35,681 bases of DNA from Streptosporangiales bacterium (lineage in GTDB: Bacteria; Actinomycetota; Actinomycetes; Streptosporangiales; WHST01). The translations under genes were made by a program, and so were the position numbers. This document shows, piece after piece, positions 18,158-33,638 of the stretch. The stretch lies in NCBI GenBank assembly GCA_009379825.1, contig WHTA01000060.1, positions 1-35,681 of the forward strand, read 5' to 3'. Under the pieces are notes generated by a model. That model was not told where the DNA came from. It did no database searches and worked only from the letters and a program-made list of their open reading frames with translations. Within the stretch, counting starts at the first letter, position 1. Each line of letters opens with the position of its first letter.

Positions 18158-19054
18158 ATGATCGCCATCCTCACGGCACTCGAGACCGAGTACGCCGCCA
18201 TCCGGGCTCACTTGATCAGCACCAAGCGGCACGAACACGCGAAGGGAACCATCTTCGAGGTCGGCGTGCTCGCCGCCCGCCCAACCTGCCGAGTCGCACT
18301 CGCGGCAACCGGGATGACCAACCTCAACGCCGCCCTGCTCACCGAACGGGCGATCGCGGAGTTCAACCCGTCGACGACGATGTTCGTCGGCGTCGCGGGC
18401 GGTCGGCGCGACTGGCTCCAGCTCGGTGACGTCGTGGTGGCCACGCGGGTGTACAGCTACCACGGCGGCCGCAGCGAGGACACCCGGTTCCGTGTCCGTC
18501 CCCGCGCATGGGAGATCTCGCACCGCGCAGAACAGGTCGCGCGGTGGCTGTCCAGGTCATCCGACTGGTACCCGTCGGCCGCGGAAGCACCGGCACCCGT
18601 CGTGCACTTCGCGCCCATCGCGGCCGGCGACGTCGTACTCGACTCCCAGACCTCCGACGTCGCACAGCACCTCGACGATCACTACAACGACGCCATCGCC
18701 GTCGAGATGGAGAGCGCCGGCTTCGCCGCCGCCGGCCAGGTCAACGAACACGTCGTGTCAGTGACCATCCGCGGCATCAGCGACGGTGCAGGTGGCGCGA
18801 AGGAGCAGACCGACAACAAGGGCTGGCAACAGATCGCCGCACGCAACGCCGCAGCGTTCGCCGCCGCCGTAGCAGCCGAGCTAGGCGACGAAAGCGAGAC
18901 GGGAGCCGGTGAACCAGCCGCCGACCCGGCCACACCACCCACCCCACAGGTGCACAACACCAACATCGCCAAACACAACGCGACGGTGGGCTACCAACTC
19001 GGAATCAACCACGGCGAACTCCACAGCGGCACGGACCCCAGAGACCGGAGCTGA
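18158..19054 (+). CDS. Nucleosidase/phosphorylase-fold protein with C-terminal RHIM-like motif
   Basis: A 298-aa protein. Residues 1-242 are a PNP_UDP_1 domain of the MTA/SAH nucleosidase type. Catalytic positions are conserved: Glu11 in ALETEY, Met184-Glu185 in VEMESAG, Asp209 in RGISDGA. It should cleave an N-glycosidic bond of a purine nucleoside or nucleotide. A Pro/Ala-rich linker (243-265) leads to a terminal motif, residues 267-289, containing ATVGYQLGINHG. The next gene begins with nearly the same motif. PNP-fold enzymes serve as immune effectors (for example ATP nucleosidases in Detocs and CBASS), which fits this design. AGGGG lies 5 nt before the ATG. Substrate (ATP, AMP, NAD-derived or MTA) is undetermined. 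Confidence 0.88.
   Translation: MIAILTALETEYAAIRAHLISTKRHEHAKGTIFEVGVLAARPTCRVALAATGMTNLNAALLTERAIAEFNPSTTMFVGVAGGRRDWLQLGDVVVATRVYSYHGGRSEDTRFRVRPRAWEISHRAEQVARWLSRSSDWYPSAAEAPAPVVHFAPIAAGDVVLDSQTSDVAQHLDDHYNDAIAVEMESAGFAAAGQVNEHVVSVTIRGISDGAGGAKEQTDNKGWQQIAARNAAAFAAAVAAELGDESETGAGEPAADPATPPTPQVHNTNIAKHNATVGYQLGINHGELHSGTDPRDRS
18956..19024 (+). other. Amyloid-signalling-like motif, effector copy
   Basis: Encodes residues 267-289 of the nucleosidase, containing TNIAKHNATVGYQLGINHG. Compared with the copy in the next gene, 13 of 21 aligned residues are identical while several codons differ synonymously. The Q-[LI]-G core resembles the RHIM tetrad (IQIG, VQVG). Confidence 0.6.
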
Positions 19055-19056
19055 CC

Positions 19057-21153
19057 GTGCCGCCGCGGCAGGAGGACCCCACGCCGACGTCCCACACGAA
19101 CATCGCCGGCGACCACGCGACCGTCGGCGCACAGATCGGCATCAACAACGGCACCGTGGTCCACACGAGACACGTCTACATCGGCGGCCTCGGCGACAGT
19201 CCACAGGAGCGACTCCGACGCGCCATCGGTGCCCTGGAAACCGACCCGCCGAGGGCACAAGCCCAGCTCCGCGAACTGCTGGAGGCGGGGCAGTACTCCA
19301 CGCAGTTGGCGTACTACTACACCTTGTCGCTGTTGAGCGGTCTGCCACTGCACGATATAGGTCAGGTGCGCGCCGCACTGAAAGGCGTGCGCCCCACAGA
19401 CCAACAACCAACGGACGAGTGGTCGGCCGCGCTCCACGTCATCTGGCGGTACCTCGACTGCATATCGCAGGGAGCCGGGGAACGGTTCGATCGGAAGAAC
19501 CTCGATCGTGCGCAGCAGCAACTGGAAGGTCTGCACCGGGAGCGCCGATGGGAGATCGCTCAACACGTCGGTAACGTCATCGACGGCGCCGGTCAGGACA
19601 GGGCAGATGACATCATCGCCAACCAGGTTCCGGCGTGGCGGATGGCGAACGACCGCGCGGGCCGTGCATGGAAGTTCTTCGAAGACGTGCCCGCCAAGTC
19701 CAGACAGGAACACCAGGAGCGCACGACGATCAGGCTGGGCATCTGGGGCCGCATATTGGCCGGTGGGATCCCCCTACCGTTCGCTCTCGCGGCGCCGTTC
19801 TCGCCCCTCGGCAGCGGGCGCCTCGCTGTGGGGATACCGGCGCTCGTCATGTTCCTTGCCGGTGTCTTGGCGGCAGGTCGGTTCGGCGCGCAGCGAGCGA
19901 CCCAGCGAATGCGGCTGGAGCGCAGGGATAGCGAGCACGGCATCCCACTGAACGTACAACCGCCCGTATCACCGGGTCACTGGGTGAGGACCCGGTTCGT
20001 CGAGGACATACACCGTTGGGTCGACGAATGGTTCACCGCATCGCGACCGCACACCGAAGGCCAGTGGAGCGAGGACACCCGGGGCATCCGCGAGTACCTG
20101 AAGGGACGATTCGTGTCGCTCTACGGCAACGCACACGTGACGGCTGGTCAGGTGGACTGGCTGATCAGGTGGCACGCGAAGCGAGTGGCGCAGCGCTGGC
20201 GAACGGGCAAGCTCTTCGCGTATCGCGAGGAGTTGCGGCCGTCCCGCGACACCGCGACGTTCTACTACCTCAGCGTTGCCGTGGCGTTGATCGGTGTCGT
20301 GATGATGCTCGGCGCCGGTGGTGGGTTCGCCGCGACAGCCGTGCTGCTCGGGATCGGCCCACTCCAGGCCATGCAGGCGGTGACCGTCGTCATCGCCACC
20401 CGACGGTGCGACAGCGAGGCTCGGATCCTGAGCGCACAGCTGGCGAGAGAGGAGAAGGATGCCCACACCGAGTGGCAACAGCTTCTCCGGGACCAGCCGG
20501 ACGACACGGAGTTGGCACGGTGGCTCAACCTCGACAAGTCGTTCCTCTGGGCGAAGGCGTGTGAGCAATACGCGCTCAAGAGCCGGGACGTGCTCAGCTA
20601 CGCCGTGCTGACCGAAGGCCGTTCGGCGGCGGGACGCGCGCGGGAGGTACGTGGACCGTGGAGGTACAAGTCGTACCGCGTACTGGTCTTCCTGCTGACC
20701 AGGAGCGGGATGCGGGAGGCCGACTTCGAGCTCGACTTTGTCACCGGGAACGCGAGGTTCGTACGTCGGATGTCGTTCCGGTACGACGTGCTCGCTTCCG
20801 CCCGGGTCTCCGAGTACGGCGTGCGATACCGCGGCGACCGGCCCCGTACACAGCAGAACTTCGTGCACAGGAGCACCTTCCGGCTCTCGCTGCTCAGCGG
20901 CGAGGAGATCAAGGTCCGCACCCAGGGGTTCACCGACACGATGGACAGCCAGCTTGAGGACGAGCTCGAGCTACAGCAGACGGAACTCGTCGCCTCGGGC
21001 ATTTCCGCGGCCCTGCAACTCCTCGAGGCGGTCACCGCAGAAGGGCGGGACTGGATCTCCCAGCAGCAGCAGCGCAGGCGCATCGGCATCGCTCATTGGC
21101 GCCGGCAGCGCGTCGCCCCCACGGCCGGTGAGCCCGATGACCCGTTCGAATAG
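19057..21153 (+). CDS. Four-helix membrane protein with N-terminal RHIM-like motif
   Basis: A 698-aa protein of no family I recognise. Residues 13-36 hold the motif TNIAGDHATVGAQIGINNG. Residues 45-225 are alpha-helical and TPR-like in texture (ERLRRAIGALETDPPRAQAQLRELLE spans the first pair). Membrane helices are at about 228-248, 255-275, 402-420 and 423-447. The C-terminal 450-698 has a helical part, then a beta-rich part (about 535-625) that could be PH-like. The GTG start lies 2 nt after the nucleosidase stop, with GGAG 6 nt upstream, so synthesis is coupled. Five Ile codons are ATA, unusual in this GC-rich setting. Likely the membrane-bound sensor or scaffold partner of the nucleosidase. 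Confidence 0.85.
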   Translation: MPPRQEDPTPTSHTNIAGDHATVGAQIGINNGTVVHTRHVYIGGLGDSPQERLRRAIGALETDPPRAQAQLRELLEAGQYSTQLAYYYTLSLLSGLPLHDIGQVRAALKGVRPTDQQPTDEWSAALHVIWRYLDCISQGAGERFDRKNLDRAQQQLEGLHRERRWEIAQHVGNVIDGAGQDRADDIIANQVPAWRMANDRAGRAWKFFEDVPAKSRQEHQERTTIRLGIWGRILAGGIPLPFALAAPFSPLGSGRLAVGIPALVMFLAGVLAAGRFGAQRATQRMRLERRDSEHGIPLNVQPPVSPGHWVRTRFVEDIHRWVDEWFTASRPHTEGQWSEDTRGIREYLKGRFVSLYGNAHVTAGQVDWLIRWHAKRVAQRWRTGKLFAYREELRPSRDTATFYYLSVAVALIGVVMMLGAGGGFAATAVLLGIGPLQAMQAVTVVIATRRCDSEARILSAQLAREEKDAHTEWQQLLRDQPDDTELARWLNLDKSFLWAKACEQYALKSRDVLSYAVLTEGRSAAGRAREVRGPWRYKSYRVLVFLLTRSGMREADFELDFVTGNARFVRRMSFRYDVLASARVSEYGVRYRGDRPRTQQNFVHRSTFRLSLLSGEEIKVRTQGFTDTMDSQLEDELELQQTELVASGISAALQLLEAVTAEGRDWISQQQQRRRIGIAHWRRQRVAPTAGEPDDPFE
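19093..19164 (+). other. Amyloid-signalling-like motif, partner copy
   Basis: Encodes residues 13-36 of the membrane protein, containing TNIAGDHATVGAQIGINNG. Position at the extreme N-terminus mirrors the C-terminal copy in the preceding gene, as in effector/receptor pairs joined by BASS motifs. Confidence 0.6.
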
Positions 21154-23443: not shown

Positions 23444-24922
23444 TCATACTCGTTCCTCCGGTTGCGATGGTGTCGTCGCAGGTTGTGGCCGCCGCAACCG
23501 GTCGAATGTGGCGGTCGCCACCGGGTCGGTCGGCGTCACCAGCGACACCACGACGACGATCACGACGGTACCGAGAAGGGTCGGCAGGACTGGGTCGAAC
23601 CAGTCCGGCGTGAGACCCATCGCGACGACAACGCGGCCGATCACTGCTGCTACCGCGCCGAAGATCAGCCCTCCCCACGCGCCGGCGCGGGTGGTTCTGC
23701 GCCAGTACAGGCTGAACAGGATCAGCACACCCCCCGACGCGCCAGCCACGGTGTAGGCGATCGTCATCATGTCGGTGATGTAGGTGGGACGCCACAGGCC
23801 GAACGGCAGCGCGGCGAGCCCGAGCAGCACGACCAGCAACTTGGTGCGCCGCAACAGTTGGCTGTCGGTCCACTCGCTGCGGATGGTCTTGCGCAGCAGG
23901 TCGTGCGTCCCCGACGACGCGGCGGTGAGCAGCCAGGTGTCCGCCGAGGAAAGAATGGCACCGAGGATGGCGGCCAGCAGGATGCCCGCGATGATCGCCG
24001 GCGTCTGCTCGAGCACGAACCGCACCCACACGGTCTCGGTGTCGGCGACGTTCGGGTAGAGCGCACGGGTCGCTGCCCCGGCGAGGCCGATGAGTGCCCA
24101 GAACGGCAGGTACACGGCGGAGACCGCGATGCCGGTCTTGATGACGTCCCGTTCGCTGCGCGCGGCGTAGAACCGCGTCAAGAAGCCCGGGTGGCCCAGG
24201 TAGCCGAGGAACCACACGAAGAACAGTGCCATCACGTTTACTACGCTCAGCGCCCCACCGGTGATGCCGAAGAAGCCGGGCTGCTCCGCCTCGACCGTCG
24301 CGGTGATCTCACCCCAACCGCCGGCGGCGCTGATGGTGAGCGGCACCACGACGGCGACAGCGAGCAGGAACGCCGCTGCCTGCACGAAGTCGGTGTAGAG
24401 CACGGCCTTCTGGCCGCCGAAGAACGTGTAGAGGATCACCACGACCGTGATCACGACCACGGAGGTGCCGTAACTCCAGCCCCACAGCGAGCCGAACAGC
24501 AGCCCGCCCTGCACCAGTACGGTCGCTAGCAGGAACACCATCCACAGCACGGTGATAGCGGAGAACACCACGCGCAGTCCCGGCGAGTTGAACCGGTCGG
24601 CAAGGTATTCGGGGATGGTGAACCGGCCGTGCCTGCGCAGCCGTGGACCGACGGCGAAGCAGATCACCAACCACGAGAACGCCACGCCGAGCGGGATCCA
24701 GTGCACCGAGAACCCGGTGCGGTAGTACGAGCTGATCAGGCCGAAGAACGTAGCCCCGGACACCGTCGAGGCAATCAGCGAGCCGGAGATCAACCACCAT
24801 GGTGCAGACCGACCCGCGACGAAGAAATCGGCCGACTCGCGGGTCTTTCTGTAACCGTGCCAGGCCGAGAACCCGATTACTAGCGCGAATACGACTATGC
24901 AACCAGTTATAACCGCGTTCAT
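23444..24922 (-). CDS. Sodium:solute symporter (SSS family)
   Basis: A 492-aa integral membrane transporter with about 13 helices. Family landmarks are SADFFVAGRSAPWWLISGSLIAS near the start, FTIPEYLADRFNSPGLR, and ILGAILSSADTWLLTAASSG near helix 8, the region that forms the sodium site. It imports an organic solute with sodium; in this locus the solute is probably the substrate of the hydantoinase-type operon. Its ATG overlaps the stop of a 39-aa membrane peptide gene by 4 nt. Confidence 0.93.
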   Translation of the reverse strand: MNAVITGCIVVFALVIGFSAWHGYRKTRESADFFVAGRSAPWWLISGSLIASTVSGATFFGLISSYYRTGFSVHWIPLGVAFSWLVICFAVGPRLRRHGRFTIPEYLADRFNSPGLRVVFSAITVLWMVFLLATVLVQGGLLFGSLWGWSYGTSVVVITVVVILYTFFGGQKAVLYTDFVQAAAFLLAVAVVVPLTISAAGGWGEITATVEAEQPGFFGITGGALSVVNVMALFFVWFLGYLGHPGFLTRFYAARSERDVIKTGIAVSAVYLPFWALIGLAGAATRALYPNVADTETVWVRFVLEQTPAIIAGILLAAILGAILSSADTWLLTAASSGTHDLLRKTIRSEWTDSQLLRRTKLLVVLLGLAALPFGLWRPTYITDMMTIAYTVAGASGGVLILFSLYWRRTTRAGAWGGLIFGAVAAVIGRVVVAMGLTPDWFDPVLPTLLGTVVIVVVVSLVTPTDPVATATFDRLRRPQPATTPSQPEERV

Positions 24923-25038
24923 CCCTGGTCACCCTTTCCTCGCCTGCTGCGCAACATGCGTACCCCAATGGTGAACGCTAGAAGCATCTGCAATATCCCG
25001 AGCACAAGAAGCGGGACACTCTCCGCTAGCCAGTCCAT
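24919..25038 (-). CDS. 39-aa single-helix membrane peptide, symporter partner
   Basis: A short gene starting MDWLAESVPLLVLG and ending in a basic, polar tail (RSRRGKGDQG). Residues 7-27 form one hydrophobic helix. It has a good ribosome site (AGGAG, 5-8 nt before ATG) and its stop overlaps the symporter ATG as ATGA, so the two are translationally coupled. Some sodium symporters (for example PanF with YhdT-like partners) have a small companion membrane subunit; this one does not clearly match a named family. Probably an accessory or assembly subunit. Confidence 0.75.
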   Translation of the reverse strand: MDWLAESVPLLVLGILQMLLAFTIGVRMLRSRRGKGDQG

Positions 25039-25091: not shown

Positions 25092-25850
25092 TCACAACCG
25101 TCCCACCAGAATCGTCGACATTTCCTCGGCCGTACTGTTGAGATCTTGCAACCAGTCCGACGGCTCGAACCGCGGTATCGGCCCCGCCACGCTCAAGGCC
25201 GCAACCACCTCGTTGCGCCGATTTCGGACCCCGGTCGCTATCCCCCGTACCCCGTCGGTGTATTCCTCGTCGATCGTCGCGTAGCCGTCCCGCCGTACCT
25301 CGGCGAGCTGCCGCGACAACGCGGACTTTTGGCGAAACGTGTTCTTCGCCGCGGCCGGCAGCGTCTCCGAGGGAAACAGCGCGTCGAGTTCTTCGACCGG
25401 CAACTCGGCCAGGAAGACCTTGCCCGAGCCGCAACTGTGCACGGGCATTTTCGTCCCGATCCGAATTTCCGCGCGGAGAATGCTGGCGCTTTCGAAGCGC
25501 TGCACGATGAGTGCGTCCCGGCCGCGGTGAATGGCCAGCGAGACCGCCTCGCCGGAGAGGTCCGCAAGCTTGCGCATCGGCGGCGTCAGTGGGCCACCGA
25601 AACGCGAGCTTTCCGGCACCGCCGACCCGATCTCGAATGCGGCGATGCCGAGGCAGTAGGTACCCGCCTCGAGGCGCTCCACGAATCCGTGCTCAGCCAA
25701 GGTGCTCAGCAGCAGGTGCGCGGTGCTCTTGCCCACCTCCAGCCGCGTGGCCAGGTCGGACACCCCTAGGCCGTCCGGGTGCTCGGCCAGCACGGTGAGC
25801 AGGCGCAGCGCATTGCCGACACTGTGGACACGTCGAGGTGTGTTCGACAT
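25092..25850 (-). CDS. IclR family regulator 1, head of the transport operon
   Basis: A 252-aa IclR protein: winged helix at residues 1-70 (VGNALRLLTVLAEH, VSDLATRLEVGKSTAHLLLSTLAEHGFVE), then the ligand domain with LSGEAVSLAIHRGRDALIVQRFES and SCGSGKVFLAELP. The ATG at 25850 is chosen because it aligns exactly with the divergent paralogue, which has the same length; an upstream extension to 26138 overlaps that gene. The promoter TTGACC-17-TAAACT (25905-25910, 25882-25887) precedes it. Two operator copies cover the transcription start and start codon, implying autorepression. The symporter pair follows 53 bp downstream. Confidence 0.92.
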   Translation of the reverse strand: MSNTPRRVHSVGNALRLLTVLAEHPDGLGVSDLATRLEVGKSTAHLLLSTLAEHGFVERLEAGTYCLGIAAFEIGSAVPESSRFGGPLTPPMRKLADLSGEAVSLAIHRGRDALIVQRFESASILRAEIRIGTKMPVHSCGSGKVFLAELPVEELDALFPSETLPAAAKNTFRQKSALSRQLAEVRRDGYATIDEEYTDGVRGIATGVRNRRNEVVAALSVAGPIPRFEPSDWLQDLNSTAEEMSTILVGRL

Positions 25851-25910
25851 GGACGAACACCTTTCGTAAGGAGCGAACCGGAGTTTATGGGCGGGCTGTC
25901 GAAGGGTCAA
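25840..25910 (-). promoter_or_regulatory. iclR1 promoter with two phased operators
   Basis: The -35 TTGACC (25905-25910) and -10 TAAACT (25882-25887) are separated by 17 nt. Operators TTCGTAAGGAGCGAA (25863-25877) and TTCGACATGGACGAA (25843-25857) start exactly 20 bp apart. The first covers the expected transcription start, the second the ATG. The second is part of a longer palindrome GTGTTCG-7-CGAACAC (25840-25860). Confidence 0.7.
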
Positions 25911-25959
25911 GGCCGGGCGAGGTGTCATGGCTGAGACTCTTGGCGGGCCACGTGGCACC

Positions 25960-26025
25960 TTGACGGGATCACTGCCGCGTGATTCTCTGTTCGTGTCGTA
26001 CGAAAGGCGTTCGTGTATGACGAAC
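25960..26025 (+). promoter_or_regulatory. iclR2 promoter with two phased operators
   Basis: The -35 TTGACG (25960-25965) and -10 TTCTCT (25983-25988) are 17 nt apart. Operators TTCGTGTCGTACGAA (25990-26004) and TTCGTGTATGACGAA (26010-26024) again start exactly 20 bp apart and again cover the transcription start and the ATG. The consensus TTCGn-5-nCGAA is shared with the iclR1 side. Confidence 0.7.
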
Positions 26026-26775
26026 ACTTCCAAGATATCGAGCTCCGCCAACACGTGCCTGCGCGTGCTTCGCGCGGTCGCGGACCACCCCGAGGGGGTC
26101 GGCATCACGCAGCTGGCTCGAGAGCTCGACATCGGCAAGAGCAGTATTCATATGTTCTTGGCAACCTTGGCCAGCCACGGCTTCGTAGAGCGGCAGGCCG
26201 CCAGCAGCTATCGGCTGGGCATGACCGCCTTCGAAGTCGGTTCCGCCACGCCGGAGACCGCCCGTTTCGGCGGCCCGGTGCTCGAGCCGATGCGAAGGCT
26301 CGCCGACCTCTCCGGCGAGGCGGTCACACTCGCCGTCCTGAGCGGCCAGGACGCGCTGATGGTGCAGCGTTTCGAGACGGCTCACATCCTGCGGGCCGAG
26401 ATCCGCGTGGGCACCCGGATGCCGCTGACCAGCTGTGCGTCCGGAAAGTTCCTGCTCGCGCACATGGACGACGCGGAGGTCGACGCACTTCTGCCGGAGG
26501 AACGCCTGCCGGCGACGACTCCGCACAGCGAGCGCAGTAAGACGAAGCTGCGGCGCGGCTTCGCCACGATCCGCGAACGCGGCTGGGCGACCAACGACGA
26601 GGAGTTCGCGGAAGGCATCACTGGCATCGCTACCGGGGTGCATGGACGCGACGGCAACTTCGCCGCTGCGCTCAGCATCGCCGGACCGACAATGCGCTTC
26701 GAACCCGAGAGTTGGGTGGACGACCTGCTCCGCACGGCAGCCGAGATGAACCAGTTGATCGCCGCCCGCCCTTGA
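26017..26775 (+). CDS. IclR family regulator 2, head of the enzyme operon
   Basis: A 252-aa IclR protein, a paralogue of the divergent IclR1 and of identical length. The winged helix holds GITQLARELDIGKSSIHMFLATLASHGFVE; the ligand domain holds LSGEAVTLAVLSGQDALMVQRFET and SCASGKFLLAH. Aligned blocks such as SRFGGP/ARFGGP, ILRAEIR and the C-terminal GIATGV indicate a duplication followed by divergence. GAAAGG lies about 9 nt before ATG. The hydantoinase gene follows after 41 nt on the same strand, so iclR2 is probably its first cistron. Confidence 0.92.
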   Translation: MTNTSKISSSANTCLRVLRAVADHPEGVGITQLARELDIGKSSIHMFLATLASHGFVERQAASSYRLGMTAFEVGSATPETARFGGPVLEPMRRLADLSGEAVTLAVLSGQDALMVQRFETAHILRAEIRVGTRMPLTSCASGKFLLAHMDDAEVDALLPEERLPATTPHSERSKTKLRRGFATIRERGWATNDEEFAEGITGIATGVHGRDGNFAAALSIAGPTMRFEPESWVDDLLRTAAEMNQLIAARP

Positions 26776-26816: not shown

Positions 26817-28850
26817 ATGAAGCTGATTGCCGGAGTCGACGTCGGCGGCACGTTCACGGACGTTCTGCTGTACAACACCGAGACGACCGAGCTGGAGTTG
26901 GCGAAGGTCTTCTCGACGTCGGGCATGCAGTCAGCAGGCCTGATGACCGGCCTGCGGCAGACCGGTGCACCGTTGGATCGGCTCGATGCAGTCGTGCACG
27001 GCACCACGGTCGCGACGAATGCCGTGCTGGAGCGCAAGGGTGCCCGCACCGCCCTCGTGGTGACAACCGGGTTCCGCGACGTGCTCGAGCTGCGGCGTCG
27101 CGACCGGCCGACCACGTACGGGCTCACCGGGACCTACGTGCCGCTGATCCCGCGTAGCCTGTCTTTCGAGATCGACGAGCGGATCGGCGCCGACGGCCAG
27201 GTAGTGACCGCTCTGGAGGACAGCGTCATCGACGACCTGGTCGATCGACTTCGCACCGCTGAGGTCCAAAGCGTGGCCATCTGCCTGATGAACAGCTACG
27301 TGAACGCTGCCCACGAGGAGAGGCTCGCGGCTCGCTTGCGCACGTCGTTGCCGGATATCTCGGTGACGACGTCGGCAGAGGTGGCGCCAGAGTCCGGCGA
27401 GTTCGAGCGGGCGAGCACCACCGCCGTCAACGCATTCGTCGGGGCTGGCATGACGCGCTATCTGGACGCAGTCCAGGACGAGCTCGAGTCCGAGGGGTTC
27501 GCGAACGACGTCCAGGTCATGCAGTCGAACGGCGGCGTTATGCCAGTACGCCGTGCCGGTCCCCTCGCCGTACGGACGCTCCTTTCCGGGCCCGCTGCGG
27601 GAACGATGGGCGCGGCGGCATTCGGCCGTGCCGCCGGACTCCCGGACGTCATCTCGTGCGACATGGGCGGCACCAGTTTCGACGTCGCCCTGATCCCGGA
27701 CGGGCAACCCACGCTGACCGCGGAGAGCAGCATCGAGTACGGGATCCCACTGCGAGTCCCGATGATCGCCATCACCACCATCGGTGCCGGCGGTGGCTCG
27801 ATCGCCAGTATCGACCGTGCTGGGATACTCCAGGTCGGACCGGAGAGTGCCGGTTCGACGCCGGGACCCGCGTGTTACGGGCGCGGTGGGACCCGTCCTA
27901 CCGTGACCGACGCCAACATCGTCCTCGGCCGCATCGCCGCGGATCAGAAGCTTGGCACCCAGACGGGCTTCAGCCTCGACCAACAGGCTGCCGTGGAGGC
28001 GATCCGTGAACATGTCGCGGATCCGTTGGCGATGAGCATCGCGGACGCCGCGCTCGCGATCGTCCGGTTGGCGAACGAACGGATGGCCGGCGCCATCCGA
28101 GGAGTAAGCGTGGACAAGGGGCATGACCCACGTCAGTTCGCCCTGATCGGGTTCGGTGGCGCAGGTCCACTGCACGTAGCCGAGTTGGCGAGGATCATCG
28201 GCGCGACGAAGGTGCTCGTGCCGCCGAATCCGGGGGCGCTGAGTGCATACGGGTGCTTGATCGCGGACGTGAAGTACGACTTCGTGTCCGCCGTGGCCGC
28301 CGATCTCGCATCGTGTACCGCTGATCACGTCGCTCGAGTGCTGGCCGACCAGGCGCAGCGCGGGCTGGCCACGCTCAGCAACGACGGCTTCGCGGAGGCT
28401 GACACGACTGTCGAGCATGCAGCCGAGATGCACTTCAGCAAGCAGATGCACACGATCCGAGTTCCCCTCGGGCACGACGAGAACGGCTGGACCCCAGATC
28501 GTCTCGAGGAGGCCTTCCTGGCGGCCTATCGAGAGCTCTACGGGGGCCGCATCCCCGCCAGTCCGGTGCGCGTGGCCAGCCTCCGTACGGTGGTGCAGGG
28601 AAAGCGGAACGCCGTGGGCACCGTACGGACGAGCCGCGTAGGCGACGGCGTCGCGTCCGAGCCGCGCGCCGTCGTCTTCGAGGACGGCGCCCATGTCATC
28701 CACGAGATCGACCGCACCCAGCTCGGGGTCGGCGACATCGTGGAAGGCCCCACGATCATCGTCCAGACCGATTCCACCGTCCTCCTTCCGCCCAAGGCCA
28801 CCGCCGTCGTGCACGAGAGCGGCAGCCTGATCGTCGAGGTGAACCAATGA
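26817..28850 (+). CDS. Hydantoinase/5-oxoprolinase A subunit (HyuA-like)
   Basis: A 677-aa ATPase-fold subunit. The N-terminal phosphate loop is GVDVGGTFTDVLLYN, then VVHGTTVATNAVLERKGART. The central domain has LLSGPAAGTMGAA and CDMGGTSFDV, a second nucleotide-binding signature, and the C-terminus has GFGGAGPLHV. With the B subunit it hydrolyses ATP to open a cyclic amide (hydantoin, oxoproline) or to carboxylate a ketone in related enzymes. AAAGGAG lies about 10 nt before the ATG at 26817. The gene overlaps hyuB by 4 nt (ATGA). Confidence 0.94.
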   Translation: MKLIAGVDVGGTFTDVLLYNTETTELELAKVFSTSGMQSAGLMTGLRQTGAPLDRLDAVVHGTTVATNAVLERKGARTALVVTTGFRDVLELRRRDRPTTYGLTGTYVPLIPRSLSFEIDERIGADGQVVTALEDSVIDDLVDRLRTAEVQSVAICLMNSYVNAAHEERLAARLRTSLPDISVTTSAEVAPESGEFERASTTAVNAFVGAGMTRYLDAVQDELESEGFANDVQVMQSNGGVMPVRRAGPLAVRTLLSGPAAGTMGAAAFGRAAGLPDVISCDMGGTSFDVALIPDGQPTLTAESSIEYGIPLRVPMIAITTIGAGGGSIASIDRAGILQVGPESAGSTPGPACYGRGGTRPTVTDANIVLGRIAADQKLGTQTGFSLDQQAAVEAIREHVADPLAMSIADAALAIVRLANERMAGAIRGVSVDKGHDPRQFALIGFGGAGPLHVAELARIIGATKVLVPPNPGALSAYGCLIADVKYDFVSAVAADLASCTADHVARVLADQAQRGLATLSNDGFAEADTTVEHAAEMHFSKQMHTIRVPLGHDENGWTPDRLEEAFLAAYRELYGGRIPASPVRVASLRTVVQGKRNAVGTVRTSRVGDGVASEPRAVVFEDGAHVIHEIDRTQLGVGDIVEGPTIIVQTDSTVLLPPKATAVVHESGSLIVEVNQ

Positions 28851-30562
28851 GTGCCAGCCGTACCACCAACCACGACGACGTCGACCCGCTTCTCCTCGCT
28901 GTCATCCGCGGGCGGCTGGAGCAGATCGCCGACGAGATGGACACCGTGTTCGAACGGATGGCGTTCTCGCCAGTCGTCTCCGATGCCTGGGACCGCGCTG
29001 ACGGTATCTACTCCGCGAGCGACGGCAGCATGATCGTGCAAGGCGGCCGTGGACTGCCAATCTTCGTCGGAACGATGCAGTACACGGTCGCGAGCGTCAT
29101 CGACACCGTGGACAGCCCTCGGCCCGGCGACACGTACCTCGTGAACGACCCGTTCGCCGGCGGCACCCACATCATGGACACGAAGATGGTCCGGCCATTC
29201 TTCTACCAGGGCGAGTTGTTCGCGTTCCTCGCGAACACCGGACACTGGCCGGACCTCGGCGGGCGAGTCCCTGGCGGGTTCGCGGCGTCGGCAAGCGACT
29301 GCTTCCAGGAGGGTCTACGCGTCCCGCCGGTACGTCTGTTCGTCGATGACGAGCTCCAGACCGACATCGTCTCGATCCTTCAGACGAACTCGCGGATCCC
29401 CGACGATGTGCTCGGCGACGTCGACGCCCAAGCCACGGCGCTTCGTGTCGGCGAGACGCGTCTCACGGAGCTGCTCGACGAGTACGGCGTGGATCTGATC
29501 ACGAACATGATCGACACACTCAACCGCCGTTCGGCCCAACAGATGCGCTCCCACATTGCCGACATACCAGACGGCAGTTACCACTTCGTCGAGGTGATGG
29601 ACAACGACGGCATCGTCGACGAGCCGCTGCGGGTCGATGCCCAGCTCACCGTGGCCGGAGACCATCTCACGATCGACTTCAGTCGGTCCTCCGCACCGTG
29701 CACCGGCCCGATGAACTCGGTCCTGGCCGCCACGGTGTCGAGCAGCATCGTCGCGATCAAGCACGTCTTCCCGGAAATTCCCATCAACGCCGGCATCTTC
29801 GAACCCATCAGCTTCATCGTTCCAGAAACGGTGTTCCTCAACGCCCAAGTACCGCGGCCGGTTGCCGGATGCGCCGCTGAGACGAGCCAGCGCATCATCA
29901 CCGCGGTCATGGGCGCGCTGGCGGAGGCGGTGCCTGAGCAGGTGCCAGCGGGATCGTCGGCAACGGCCAACAACCTCTCCATGGGAGGGACCGACGTCGA
30001 TGGGAACCCGTACGTCATGTACGTCTTCCTAGGTGGCGGCTACGGCGGCCACCTGGCGGGCGACGGTATCTCCAACGGCTGCTCGCTGATGAGCATCGGC
30101 CGCACCCAGTCGATCGAGACCCTCGAGCAACGATATCCCGTGCGATTCCGTCGGTACGGGCTGCGCGAGGGCTCGCCCGGTGCAGGCCGCACACGTGGCG
30201 GGTTCGGCGTCCACTTCGAGTTCGAGCTACTCGGCGATGACGCCCAAGCCAGCCTGCTCGGGGATCAGGCGCGCACCGAGCCCGCCGGTCGGGCTGGCGG
30301 GCAACCGGGCACGACGTCGTCGCCATGGTTCCGCATCGACGGCGAGGAGAGCGTCCTGCCCATGATCAGCAAGGGCGAGAACGTCCCCCTGCGACGCGGC
30401 GACATCGTCTGCCTACGCACACCGGGGGGCGCCGGGTACGGCCCGGCCGACGAGCGTCCCTACGCCGCCGTGGCGGCCGACGTCCAGGCCGGCTATCTCG
30501 ACGAAGCGACTGCCAACGAGCTCTACCCCCGATACGCGAACGGATCCCCGAATGACCGCTGA
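28847..30562 (+). CDS. Hydantoinase/5-oxoprolinase B subunit (HyuB-like)
   Basis: A 571-aa catalytic partner of the A subunit. Typical HyuB blocks are LLAVIRGRLEQIADEMDTVF near the N-terminus, SDASDG-like YSASDGSMIVQ, NDPFAGGTHIMD, FLANTGHWPDLGG and the glycine-rich RRYGLREGSPGAGRTRGGFG. Length is normal. The gene overlaps the aminotransferase gene by 11 nt. An acetone carboxylase is less likely because no gamma subunit gene is nearby. Confidence 0.94.
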   Translation: MSASRTTNHDDVDPLLLAVIRGRLEQIADEMDTVFERMAFSPVVSDAWDRADGIYSASDGSMIVQGGRGLPIFVGTMQYTVASVIDTVDSPRPGDTYLVNDPFAGGTHIMDTKMVRPFFYQGELFAFLANTGHWPDLGGRVPGGFAASASDCFQEGLRVPPVRLFVDDELQTDIVSILQTNSRIPDDVLGDVDAQATALRVGETRLTELLDEYGVDLITNMIDTLNRRSAQQMRSHIADIPDGSYHFVEVMDNDGIVDEPLRVDAQLTVAGDHLTIDFSRSSAPCTGPMNSVLAATVSSSIVAIKHVFPEIPINAGIFEPISFIVPETVFLNAQVPRPVAGCAAETSQRIITAVMGALAEAVPEQVPAGSSATANNLSMGGTDVDGNPYVMYVFLGGGYGGHLAGDGISNGCSLMSIGRTQSIETLEQRYPVRFRRYGLREGSPGAGRTRGGFGVHFEFELLGDDAQASLLGDQARTEPAGRAGGQPGTTSSPWFRIDGEESVLPMISKGENVPLRRGDIVCLRTPGGAGYGPADERPYAAVAADVQAGYLDEATANELYPRYANGSPNDR

Positions 30563-31739
30563 CACCAACCCGAGCGAGCGCACGGAGGCCACACTCGTCG
30601 ACCGCGCCCGGAGCGTGCTGCCCGGTGGCATCACCCGTTCGACGGTGTTCGTCCCTCCACACCCGCCGTATGCGGTCGCCGGAGAAGGGGCGTGGATCGT
30701 CGACGACACGGGACACCGGGTCCTGGACGCGAACGGGAACTACACCACCCTCATCCACGGGCATGCCCGACCGGAGATCGTCCATGCCGCCACAGCCGCC
30801 CTCCAGAACGGTTCGGCTTTCGGCCTGCCGACGCGTTCAGAAGTCGCCCTCGCCGAGATGCTGCGAGAACGCACGAACATGGAGCAGTGGCGCTTCTGCA
30901 ACAGTGGCTCAGAAGCAGTCATGATGCTGCTGCGCGCCGCCCGCGCGGCCACGAAACGATCGAAGATCATCCGGTTCCGCGGCAGCTACCACGGGACCAG
31001 CCCCGACGCCGTCGGCAACGAGTCACACGGCGACGTGATCGTCGTCGACCAAGGCGACACCGAAGCCGTCGCGAATGCCCTGACGACCCACGGGGACGAC
31101 GTGGCAGGAGTCGTGATCGACCTCATGCCGAACCGAGCAGGGCTTCGACGGGCCGATGCCGCACACGTGCAGGAGCTGCGTTCACTCACGCGCGAGCACG
31201 GAGCGCTACTCCTCGTCGACGAGGTCATCACCTTCCGGCTGGGGGTGGGCGGCCTGCTCGAGCAGTACGACGTGGAGGCGGACCTGGTCTCGCTCGGGAA
31301 GGCAATCGGAGGTGGCTTCGCGGTCGGCGCCATCGGTGGGCGCCGCGAGCTGCTGCAGCCGTTCGATCCGCGGGAACAGAAGCAGCCCAGTGCCGTTTCG
31401 TGGGGCGGCACGTTCAGTGCCAACCCCGTGACGATGGCTGCCGGAAAGGTAGCGCTCGACCTGTTCGACGCGACGAGCGTGGCTTCGTTGAACGCCGCTG
31501 GTGATGCGTTGCGGGCTCGCTTGGTCGCTGCGGGTGTACCGGCCACGGGATGGGGCTCTCTCCTTCGTCTGCACACCTCCGACAACCAACAGGCGTGGTG
31601 GAGTCTCTACGAGCGAGGCGTGCTCGCCGGCACCAACTGCCTCCTCGCGCTCTCCACGGCCATGGGCGAGGAGGACGTCGAGCACTTGGCCGACGCGATT
31701 CTCGCCATGGCGGACGAACATCCGCAGTACTTCCAGTGA
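30552..31739 (+). CDS. Class III aminotransferase, GSA-aminomutase-like
   Basis: A 395-aa PLP enzyme of fold type I. PLP-binding features are SGSEAVMMLLRAAR (phosphate), SYHG, LLVDEVITFR (Asp223, pyridine nitrogen) and VSLGKAIGGG with Lys250 as the Schiff-base residue. The closest pattern is glutamate-1-semialdehyde aminomutase, but the catabolic operon argues for an aminotransferase acting on the amino acid released by HyuAB rather than heme synthesis. It is shorter than HemL (about 430 aa). Confidence 0.9.
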   Translation: MTADTNPSERTEATLVDRARSVLPGGITRSTVFVPPHPPYAVAGEGAWIVDDTGHRVLDANGNYTTLIHGHARPEIVHAATAALQNGSAFGLPTRSEVALAEMLRERTNMEQWRFCNSGSEAVMMLLRAARAATKRSKIIRFRGSYHGTSPDAVGNESHGDVIVVDQGDTEAVANALTTHGDDVAGVVIDLMPNRAGLRRADAAHVQELRSLTREHGALLLVDEVITFRLGVGGLLEQYDVEADLVSLGKAIGGGFAVGAIGGRRELLQPFDPREQKQPSAVSWGGTFSANPVTMAAGKVALDLFDATSVASLNAAGDALRARLVAAGVPATGWGSLLRLHTSDNQQAWWSLYERGVLAGTNCLLALSTAMGEEDVEHLADAILAMADEHPQYFQ

Positions 31740-31749
31740 GGGCGGACGC

Positions 31750-31797
31750 ATGCCCGACCAGGCTCCCGCATACGTAGACAGCGAGGACGACGGATGA
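31750..31797 (+). CDS. Possible 15-codon micro-ORF before the CoA-transferase genes
   Basis: ATG at 31750 with GAGGG 7 nt upstream opens MPDQAPAYVDSEDDG and its stop overlaps the next ATG as ATGA. This placement could couple translation across the 54-nt gap. It is too short to tell from chance and is listed with low confidence. Confidence 0.25.
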   Translation: MPDQAPAYVDSEDDG

Positions 31798-32483
31798 GCC
31801 GCGCAACGTTCCACGACAGCGCCGACGCCGCCGTCGCCGGGATCGAGGACGGCTCGACCGTCCTGGTCGGTGGGTTCGGCATGGCCGGCATGCCGGTCAC
31901 TCTGATCGAAGCCCTGACTCGGCAGGGCGCCACCGACCTCACCGTCGTCAGCAACAACGCGGGCAACGGCGACACCGGTCTTGCGGCGCTGCTCGCCGCC
32001 GGTCGCGTGCGCAAGATCATCTGCTCGTTCCCGCGCCAGGCGGACTCTTGGGTCTTCGATCGCCTCTACCGCGACGGCCGGATCGAGCTCGAAGTCGCGC
32101 CGCAGGGCAACCTCGCCGAGCGCATGCGCGCCGCCGGCGCGGGCATCGGCGCGTTCTTCTGTCCGACCGGTGTGGACACGCCGCTCGCCGAGGGCAAGGA
32201 GACCCGCGTCATCGAAGGCCGCGAGCACGTGCTGGAGTACCCGATCAAGGGAGACGTCGCCCTCTTCGGCGCCCACCGCGCCGACCGGCTCGGCAACCTC
32301 GTCTTCCGCAAGACGGCCCGCAACTTCGGCCCCGTCATGGCCACCGCCGCCACGACCACGATCGTCGAAGTCGGCGGCGTCGTCGAGACCGGCGCACTCG
32401 ACCCCGAGGCCATCGTCACCCCGAGCATCTACGTCGACCGGGTGCTCGACCTGTCCGCACTGCAGGAAGGGGCCGGCCAGTGA
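31794..32483 (+). CDS. 3-oxoacid CoA-transferase, subunit A
   Basis: A 229-aa subunit with the family signature DGSTVLVGGFGMAGMP (glycine-rich loop) near the N-terminus, then SNNAGNGDTG and FPRQADSWVFDRLY. With the next gene's product it moves CoA from a donor such as succinyl-CoA to a 3-oxoacid. GAGGA lies about 7 nt before the ATG. The stop overlaps the subunit B start by 4 nt (GTGA). Confidence 0.94.
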   Translation: MSRATFHDSADAAVAGIEDGSTVLVGGFGMAGMPVTLIEALTRQGATDLTVVSNNAGNGDTGLAALLAAGRVRKIICSFPRQADSWVFDRLYRDGRIELEVAPQGNLAERMRAAGAGIGAFFCPTGVDTPLAEGKETRVIEGREHVLEYPIKGDVALFGAHRADRLGNLVFRKTARNFGPVMATAATTTIVEVGGVVETGALDPEAIVTPSIYVDRVLDLSALQEGAGQ

Positions 32484-33208
32484 CCTTCACCGTCCCAACG
32501 ACCACCTCCGAGCACACCGATCGCGGTCCCCTCGCCAGGGACGAGATCGCCGCGACGATCGCGCACGATATTCCGGACGGCTCGTACGTCAACCTCGGCA
32601 TCGGACAGCCGACACTCGTCGCCGACCACCTCTCCGCCGACAGCGGCGTCATCCTGCACACCGAGAACGGCATGCTGGGCATGGGACCGGCCGCCCACGG
32701 CGACGACGTCGACCCGGACCTCACCAACGCGGGCAAGATCCCCGTCACCGAGCTCCCGGGCGCGGCGTACTTCCACCACGCGGACTCGTTCGCAATGATG
32801 CGCGGCGGCCATCTCGACGTATGCGTGCTCGGCGCGTTCCAGGTCTCCAGCGGCGGCGACCTCGCGAACTGGCATACCGGCGCGCCGGACGCGATCCCGG
32901 CCGTCGGCGGCGCGATGGACCTCGCGGTCGGCGCGAAGGCCGTGCTCGTGATGATGACGCTGTTCGGCAAGGACGGCTCGCCGAAGCTCGTGCCCGAGTG
33001 CACGTACCCCCTGACGGCCGTCGGCTGCGTCAGCCGGGTCTACACCGACCTTGCGACATTCGCCATCGGGCCCGACGGTGTCACCGTCCACGAGACCTGG
33101 GGCACCACCGTCGACGAACTCACCACCCGCATTACCATCCCCCTCCGCCGGCTCGGGGCCACCCCGACCAGGGAACGCAGGGCCTACGGGGGCTCGGGCC
33201 CCCCGTAA
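32480..33208 (+). CDS. 3-oxoacid CoA-transferase, subunit B
   Basis: A 242-aa catalytic subunit. LHTENGMLGMG is the second family signature; Glu62 is the residue that forms the glutamyl-CoA thioester. YVNLGIGQPTLV and VLGAFQVSSGGDLANW are also characteristic of Sco/Pca/Ato-type transferases. GTG start overlaps the subunit A stop. In this operon it would activate the oxoacid produced by the aminotransferase step. It ends at the convergent terminator of the tmRNA gene. Confidence 0.94.
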   Translation: MTFTVPTTTSEHTDRGPLARDEIAATIAHDIPDGSYVNLGIGQPTLVADHLSADSGVILHTENGMLGMGPAAHGDDVDPDLTNAGKIPVTELPGAAYFHHADSFAMMRGGHLDVCVLGAFQVSSGGDLANWHTGAPDAIPAVGGAMDLAVGAKAVLVMMTLFGKDGSPKLVPECTYPLTAVGCVSRVYTDLATFAIGPDGVTVHETWGTTVDELTTRITIPLRRLGATPTRERRAYGGSGPP

Positions 33209-33260: not shown

Positions 33261-33267
33261 CGGCTCG

Positions 33268-33638
33268 TGGAGGTGCCGGGAATCGAACCCGGGTCCTTCG
33301 GTGTCACAGCAGGGCTTCTCCGGGCGCAGCCCGTATTACGCCTTACTCGGTCCCGGCAGTCCTACAGGCGAGCTGCCGACGGACCCAGTCGCTGTGCGCT
33401 TTCCCCGACCTGACCCGCGACCGGTCAGGCAGGTGAGCCTTCTCGCTGATGCCAGTTACCGGGCCGAAGGCACTCCCGGGCTGACAACTCCGCTTACTCG
33501 CTTAGGCAGCGAGCGCGAAGTGGTTGCGCTTTGAATTGGCGCTTGTGTTTATTGCAGCGCATGGTTTGCGAGGTCAGCGCTACCATCCTCGGCCCGCTTC
33601 CCCTACTACGGCATCCGAAGTCGAAACCGTTCACCCCC
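33268..33638 (-). ncRNA. ssrA: tmRNA (ssrA), one-piece
   Basis: The 5' end is GGGGGTGAACGGTTTCGACT (from 33638), the standard tmRNA start, and the 3' end has the T-arm CGGGTTCGATTCCCG and acceptor strand CACCTCC plus A at 33268. The seven-pair acceptor stem has one G-U pair. CCA is not encoded: the genome continues CGA. The tag frame (33540 to 33502) reads ANSKRNHFALAA then TAA, with GCC as resume codon. The tmRNA rescues stalled ribosomes with SmpB and marks the product for proteolysis. Length 371 nt is normal. A possible -10 CATAAC is at 33650-33645. Confidence 0.95.

Follow-up and report, generated by a model that had tools for sequence, protein, structure and literature searches.

Two head-to-head IclR regulators at a composite actinomycete locus, with matching tandem operators that each is expected to share

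The window, by which we mean the whole analysed stretch of 35,681 nt from a Streptosporangiales bacterium (GCA_009379825.1, contig WHTA01000060.1, positions 1-35,681), contains two divergently transcribed genes for IclR-family regulators, each heading its own operon, with four copies of the motif TTCG-N7-CGAA in the region of the two gene starts. The features of the locus are given below, where types A and B are the two kinds of operon compared with relatives.

23444..24922, minus strand: SSF sodium:solute symporter, type A (82-87% identical to type A operons)
24919..25038, minus strand: small membrane peptide of 39 aa between iclR_A and the symporter gene (from its translation)
25092..25850, minus strand: iclR_A, IclR-family regulator, 252 aa, type A lineage
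25843..25857: predicted operator over the ATG of iclR_A, centred at 0, TTCGTCCATGTCGAA on the minus strand (window motif search and relatives)
25863..25877: predicted operator over the predicted transcription start of iclR_A, centred at -20 (motif search, relatives and promoter match)
25882..25910, minus strand: predicted sigma-70-like promoter of iclR_A, TTGACC-17-TAAACT (TTGAC likewise placed in relatives)
25960..25965, plus strand: probable -35 of iclR_B, TTGACG (from the sequence, with TTGAC in relatives too; the -10 is weak)
25990..26004: predicted operator over the predicted transcription start of iclR_B, centred at -20 (motif search and relatives)
26010..26024: predicted operator over the ATG of iclR_B, centred at 0, TTCGTGTATGACGAA (motif search and relatives)
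26017..26775, plus strand: iclR_B, IclR-family regulator, 252 aa, nearest the type B lineage
26817..28850, plus strand: hyuA, hydantoinase/oxoprolinase A subunit, type B
28847..30562, plus strand: hyuB, hydantoinase/oxoprolinase B subunit, type B
30552..31739, plus strand: class III aminotransferase, GSA-aminomutase-like
31794..32483, plus strand: 3-oxoacid CoA-transferase subunit A
32480..33208, plus strand: 3-oxoacid CoA-transferase subunit B

Both regulators score above the Pfam cut-offs for PF09339 and PF01614 and belong to the IclR family, as defined by N-terminal HTH_IclR and C-terminal IclR_C domains in a protein of about 250 aa. They align without gaps at 54% identity, in agreement with the first-pass annotation, which had described them as paralogues of identical length. 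Their relatives fall into two types, and in each the search gave a single close homologue per genome. Type A operons have the order iclR-SSF-hyuA-hyuB, the last two genes being seen wherever the fetched locus reaches that far, and are found as solos in Qaidamihabitans (L024), a Pseudonocardiaceae MAG (L025), Saccharomonospora (L026) and on contig C76 of the same genome as the window. Type B operons have the order iclR-hyuA-hyuB-x-aminotransferase, where x is an MFS transporter in L073, the sole one examined, and occur as solos in nine further genomes of the L024 family (L073-L081). Judged by sequence, types A and B are two regulator lineages that normally head separate operons. In the regulator tree iclR_A falls with type A (support 86/67), while the placement of iclR_B with type B is weak (37/36) and on a long branch; by identity iclR_B is nearest type B. 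Local inverted duplication as the origin of the mirror-image pair was rejected. Identity to the solo regulators of the matching type is 70-78% for iclR_A (type A) and 54-63% for iclR_B (type B), against only 54% between the two; instead, two normally solo lineages have been joined, each with its own operator pair. The sole other close iclR paralogue in the genome, P0003 on C76, is 77% identical to iclR_A and 53% identical to iclR_B. Transposase-like sequence lies just upstream of the promoter region of this C76 gene (L023), at about -130 and beyond.

The division of transport and enzymes between the two operons that had been proposed earlier is seen in the gene content, iclR_A being followed by the SSF symporter and iclR_B by hyuA-hyuB, the aminotransferase and the CoA-transferase genes. 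The window hyuA and hyuB are 64-69/77-79% identical to those of type B, versus 53/68% for type A, and in the hyuB tree the window gene groups with type B at 94/100, a clearer result than that of the regulator tree. Together with the identity of the symporter to type A, these data indicate a composite locus in which the head of a type A operon (iclR_A-SSF) faces, head-to-head, a type B operon devoid of the MFS gene; this gene is present in the L073 operon but does not occur between hyuB and the aminotransferase gene in the window. The composite arrangement was found in no other genome, and two close homologues only here, among 61 relatives, 395 class members and 390 members of the L024 family. 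At the thresholds used there were no relatives in the organism's own order and class, and plasmid records gave only distant homologues (34-39% identity); in the two actinomycete plasmid homologues that were read (L061 and L062) the operator sequence differs. The best match for the window hyuA and hyuB is caprolactamase CapAB (NCBIfam NF050156/NF050157), which consists of ATP-dependent hydantoinase-like subunits, with scores far below the cut-offs (523 and 300 versus 1000). The 39-aa membrane peptide had no NCBIfam family match, and L059 appears to encode a similar small peptide in the equivalent place. Elsewhere in the window, a PNP_UDP_1 phosphorylase-superfamily protein matching PADLOC effector models is followed directly by a 698-aa ORF that had no family match (18158-21153), and the two are possibly a defence-type pair. 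An ARAGORN call of tRNA-Ile(tat) at 20190-20280, inside the 698-aa ORF, is probably false. A tmRNA gene (33267-33638, minus strand; tag ANSKRNHFALAA) lies directly downstream of the CoA-transferase genes.

The motif TTCG-N7-CGAA occurs four times in the window, at 25843, 25863, 25990 and 26010, in two pairs with site centres 20 bp apart, exactly as the first-pass annotation had placed them. In 100 dinucleotide shuffles, which give the chance expectation, the motif averaged 0.46 copies and never came to four; the spacing variant TTCG-N5-CGAA had no match in the whole window. A search of the genome for the 15-bp motif, which had been suggested as a check, separated the single site from the pair. 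Single copies are found at 98 places in 6.15 Mb, against about 79 predicted from the window shuffles (0.46 per 35.7 kb), so that genome-wide enrichment of the single motif was rejected and a lone copy carries little meaning. The 20-bp-phased pair, in contrast, is rare: 0.0016 exact copies are expected in the genome and two were found, both in the window. Allowing two mismatches adds one genomic pair, with one mismatch, on C76, and the genome thus has only three promoters with such a pair, one before each of the close iclR paralogues. The two pairs in the window are separated by 147 bp, or 14.0 helical turns, a phasing which we do not press, since in solo type A operons the distance to the upstream element does not come to whole turns. 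Among members of the L024 family, exact pairs in L084-L086 are apparently within reading frames and away from regulator starts. An exact 35-bp pair is also seen at L088:1501-1535 (genome G695), in the apparent promoter region of an unrelated gene, and may belong to another IclR regulator.

Within each pair the A of the ATG marks the centre of the outer site, while the inner site lies 20 bp upstream, just downstream of the promoter. As the TTGACC-17-TAAACT match ends at 25882, the predicted transcription start of iclR_A falls inside the 25863-25877 site, and from the promoter match transcription is likely to start over the inner sites. The site coordinates and this match support the earlier proposal that each promoter has one site over the transcription start and one over the ATG. 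Conservation in relatives, a further check that had been suggested, was found in both lineages: the pair centres are at exactly -20 and 0 in 15/15 iclR homologues, five of them of type A and ten of type B, with 30 matches to TTYG-N7-CRAA across all 15 upstream regions and 0-3 matches for each other spacing, and nearly all half-sites conform to TTYG...CRAA. Between types A and B, mean identity rises from 0.25-0.27 in the stretch from -180 to -60 to 0.67-0.86 across the operator segments, where the conserved columns concentrate in the half-sites. The left half-sites serve neither ribosome binding nor coding. Those on the right extend over the ribosome-binding site or codons 2-3, and part of their conservation therefore has another cause. 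At the ATG site, seven genes keep CGAAC while codon 2 varies between TCG, ACG and CCG (S, T, P), and the other eight genes, all type B, have CAAAC; in L079 the change is matched in both arms (TTTG...CAAA). Solo type A operons carry an extra element, TTCG-N7-CGAA-N5-TTYG, in which a site centred near -108 is joined by a third half-site 20 bp further along. The element lies near -115 to -92 in L023:9086-9208 (C76), L024, L025 and L026 and has a half-site identity of 0.86 versus 0.30 in the left flank. It was not found before either iclR gene of the window, and upstream of iclR_A there now lies the operator pair of the other gene.

We interpret the locus, with a probability of about 0.75, as a composite in which each regulator is controlled through its own tandem operators and is expected to read the pair of the other. 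The 35-bp pair would be an autoregulatory IclR operator, bound by a tetramer, as a dimer of dimers, on two palindromes two helical turns apart. Transcription start, ATG and ribosome-binding site would all lie under the bound tetramer, which may repress rather than activate, blocking expression of the regulator's own operon until an effector binds. iclR_A, iclR_B and probably also the C76 paralogue would read each other's pairs, linking uptake with catabolism. Mutual reading is expected because the two lineages share an inherited operator and have recognition residues that hardly differ. When aligned to TtgV, iclR_A has GKSTHL at the DNA-contact positions of TtgV and iclR_B has GKSSHM, such that their recognition-helix residues differ only by T/S and L/M, and the type B member L073 has GKSTHL exactly as iclR_A. 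These similarities make cross-regulation of iclR_A and iclR_B plausible. The identity of 54% between the two proteins counts against a shared specificity, as even IclR regulators that are 60-70% identical may differ in specificity (Suvorova & Gelfand 2021, PMC8222616). It is conceivable, though on the whole unlikely, that specificity or effector has diverged so that each regulator acts on its own pair only, the match between sites reflecting shared ancestry. The DNA-binding domains are only 51% identical, and solo genes of both types, which have no partner, still retain a pair of their own, so that autoregulation alone explains the pair; however, the contact residues are nearly identical, and none of the eight window half-sites departs from TTCG/CGAA, though most type B solos have a degenerate half-site.

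Mutual reading of the pairs could be taken further, to mixed tetramers in which one dimer of each regulator occupies a pair and two effectors exert joint control. The regulators are related, equal in length and probably co-expressed from one divergent region, and their sites are alike; solo relatives nevertheless manage with one regulator, and we regard mixed tetramers as improbable. Equally doubtful is the full picture of a closed network of three paralogues and three promoters, with possible mixed tetramers integrating two effectors, a motif of 7-bp spacing, and uptake coupled to lactam/hydantoin-type catabolism. It is very improbable that the palindromes work at the RNA level, as mRNA hairpins that enclose the AUG, instead of as operators in the DNA: GTGTTCG-N7-CGAACAC, the extended palindrome of the 25843..25857 site, could give a 7-bp stem with the AUG in the loop, and the stem is present in the predicted iclR_A fold, but the folding of the four leaders tested has at most a weak advantage over that of shuffled sequence (z -0.5, -0.4, +0.3, -1.7), predicted structures differ between relatives, and the solo type A copy near -108 lies upstream of the promoter and hence is not transcribed, which argues for DNA binding.

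The autoregulatory operators of our preferred interpretation agree in most respects with published rules for the IclR family. Tandem IclR sites 18-22 nt apart are found in 94 orthologous groups, a spacing consistent with tetramers whose dimers lie on one DNA face, and the preferred positions of site centres, counted from the gene start, are -22 and -3 to +1 (PMC8222616). The operators described here have centres at -20 and 0, well within this class, and resemble published IclR tandem operators in their inverted TTCG/CGAA-type half-sites, their tandem arrangement at about 20 bp and their position near the gene start, the published examples being typically autoregulatory (PMC8222616). Their half-site sequence is that of group 1 (TYCR...YGRA, inward facing), but the group 1 motif GKTYCRYW3-4RYGRAMC has 5-6 bp between half-sites (GTNCG-N5-6-CGNAC; PMC8222616), whereas in all 15 genes here the half-sites are 7 bp apart (N5, 0 matches; N6, 2; N7, 30). 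The GenR motif, ATTCC-N7(5)-GGAAT in Table 1 of the same study (PMC8222616), provides precedent in the family for a 7-bp spacer. To all appearances, the architecture of the pair is thus that of an ordinary IclR tandem operator with an unusual half-site spacing of 7 bp. With that spacing, and with one site lying centrally over the start codon, it adds an IclR operator subclass that would be useful for regulon prediction in actinomycetes. The double site itself is ordinary for the family, and greater interest attaches to the composite locus, where two readers stand head-to-head. If the cross-reading is true, this would be a clean case in which an operator kept in sister operons lets modules, here a transporter from one and enzymes from the other, recombine with regulation retained.

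Among known systems, regulators such as PcaU, PobR and HmgR use three-box operators, and the -108 element of solo type A operons looks similarly three-boxed, although it is absent before either gene of the window. TtgV binds its own operator as a tetramer. TtgV and TtgT, two IclR paralogues of Pseudomonas putida, reportedly cross-regulate (Teran et al. 2007, as listed in PMC7275096), as we predict for iclR_A and iclR_B. TtgV and TtgT control efflux pumps, while the genes described here lie head-to-head, one before a transporter and the other before enzymes.
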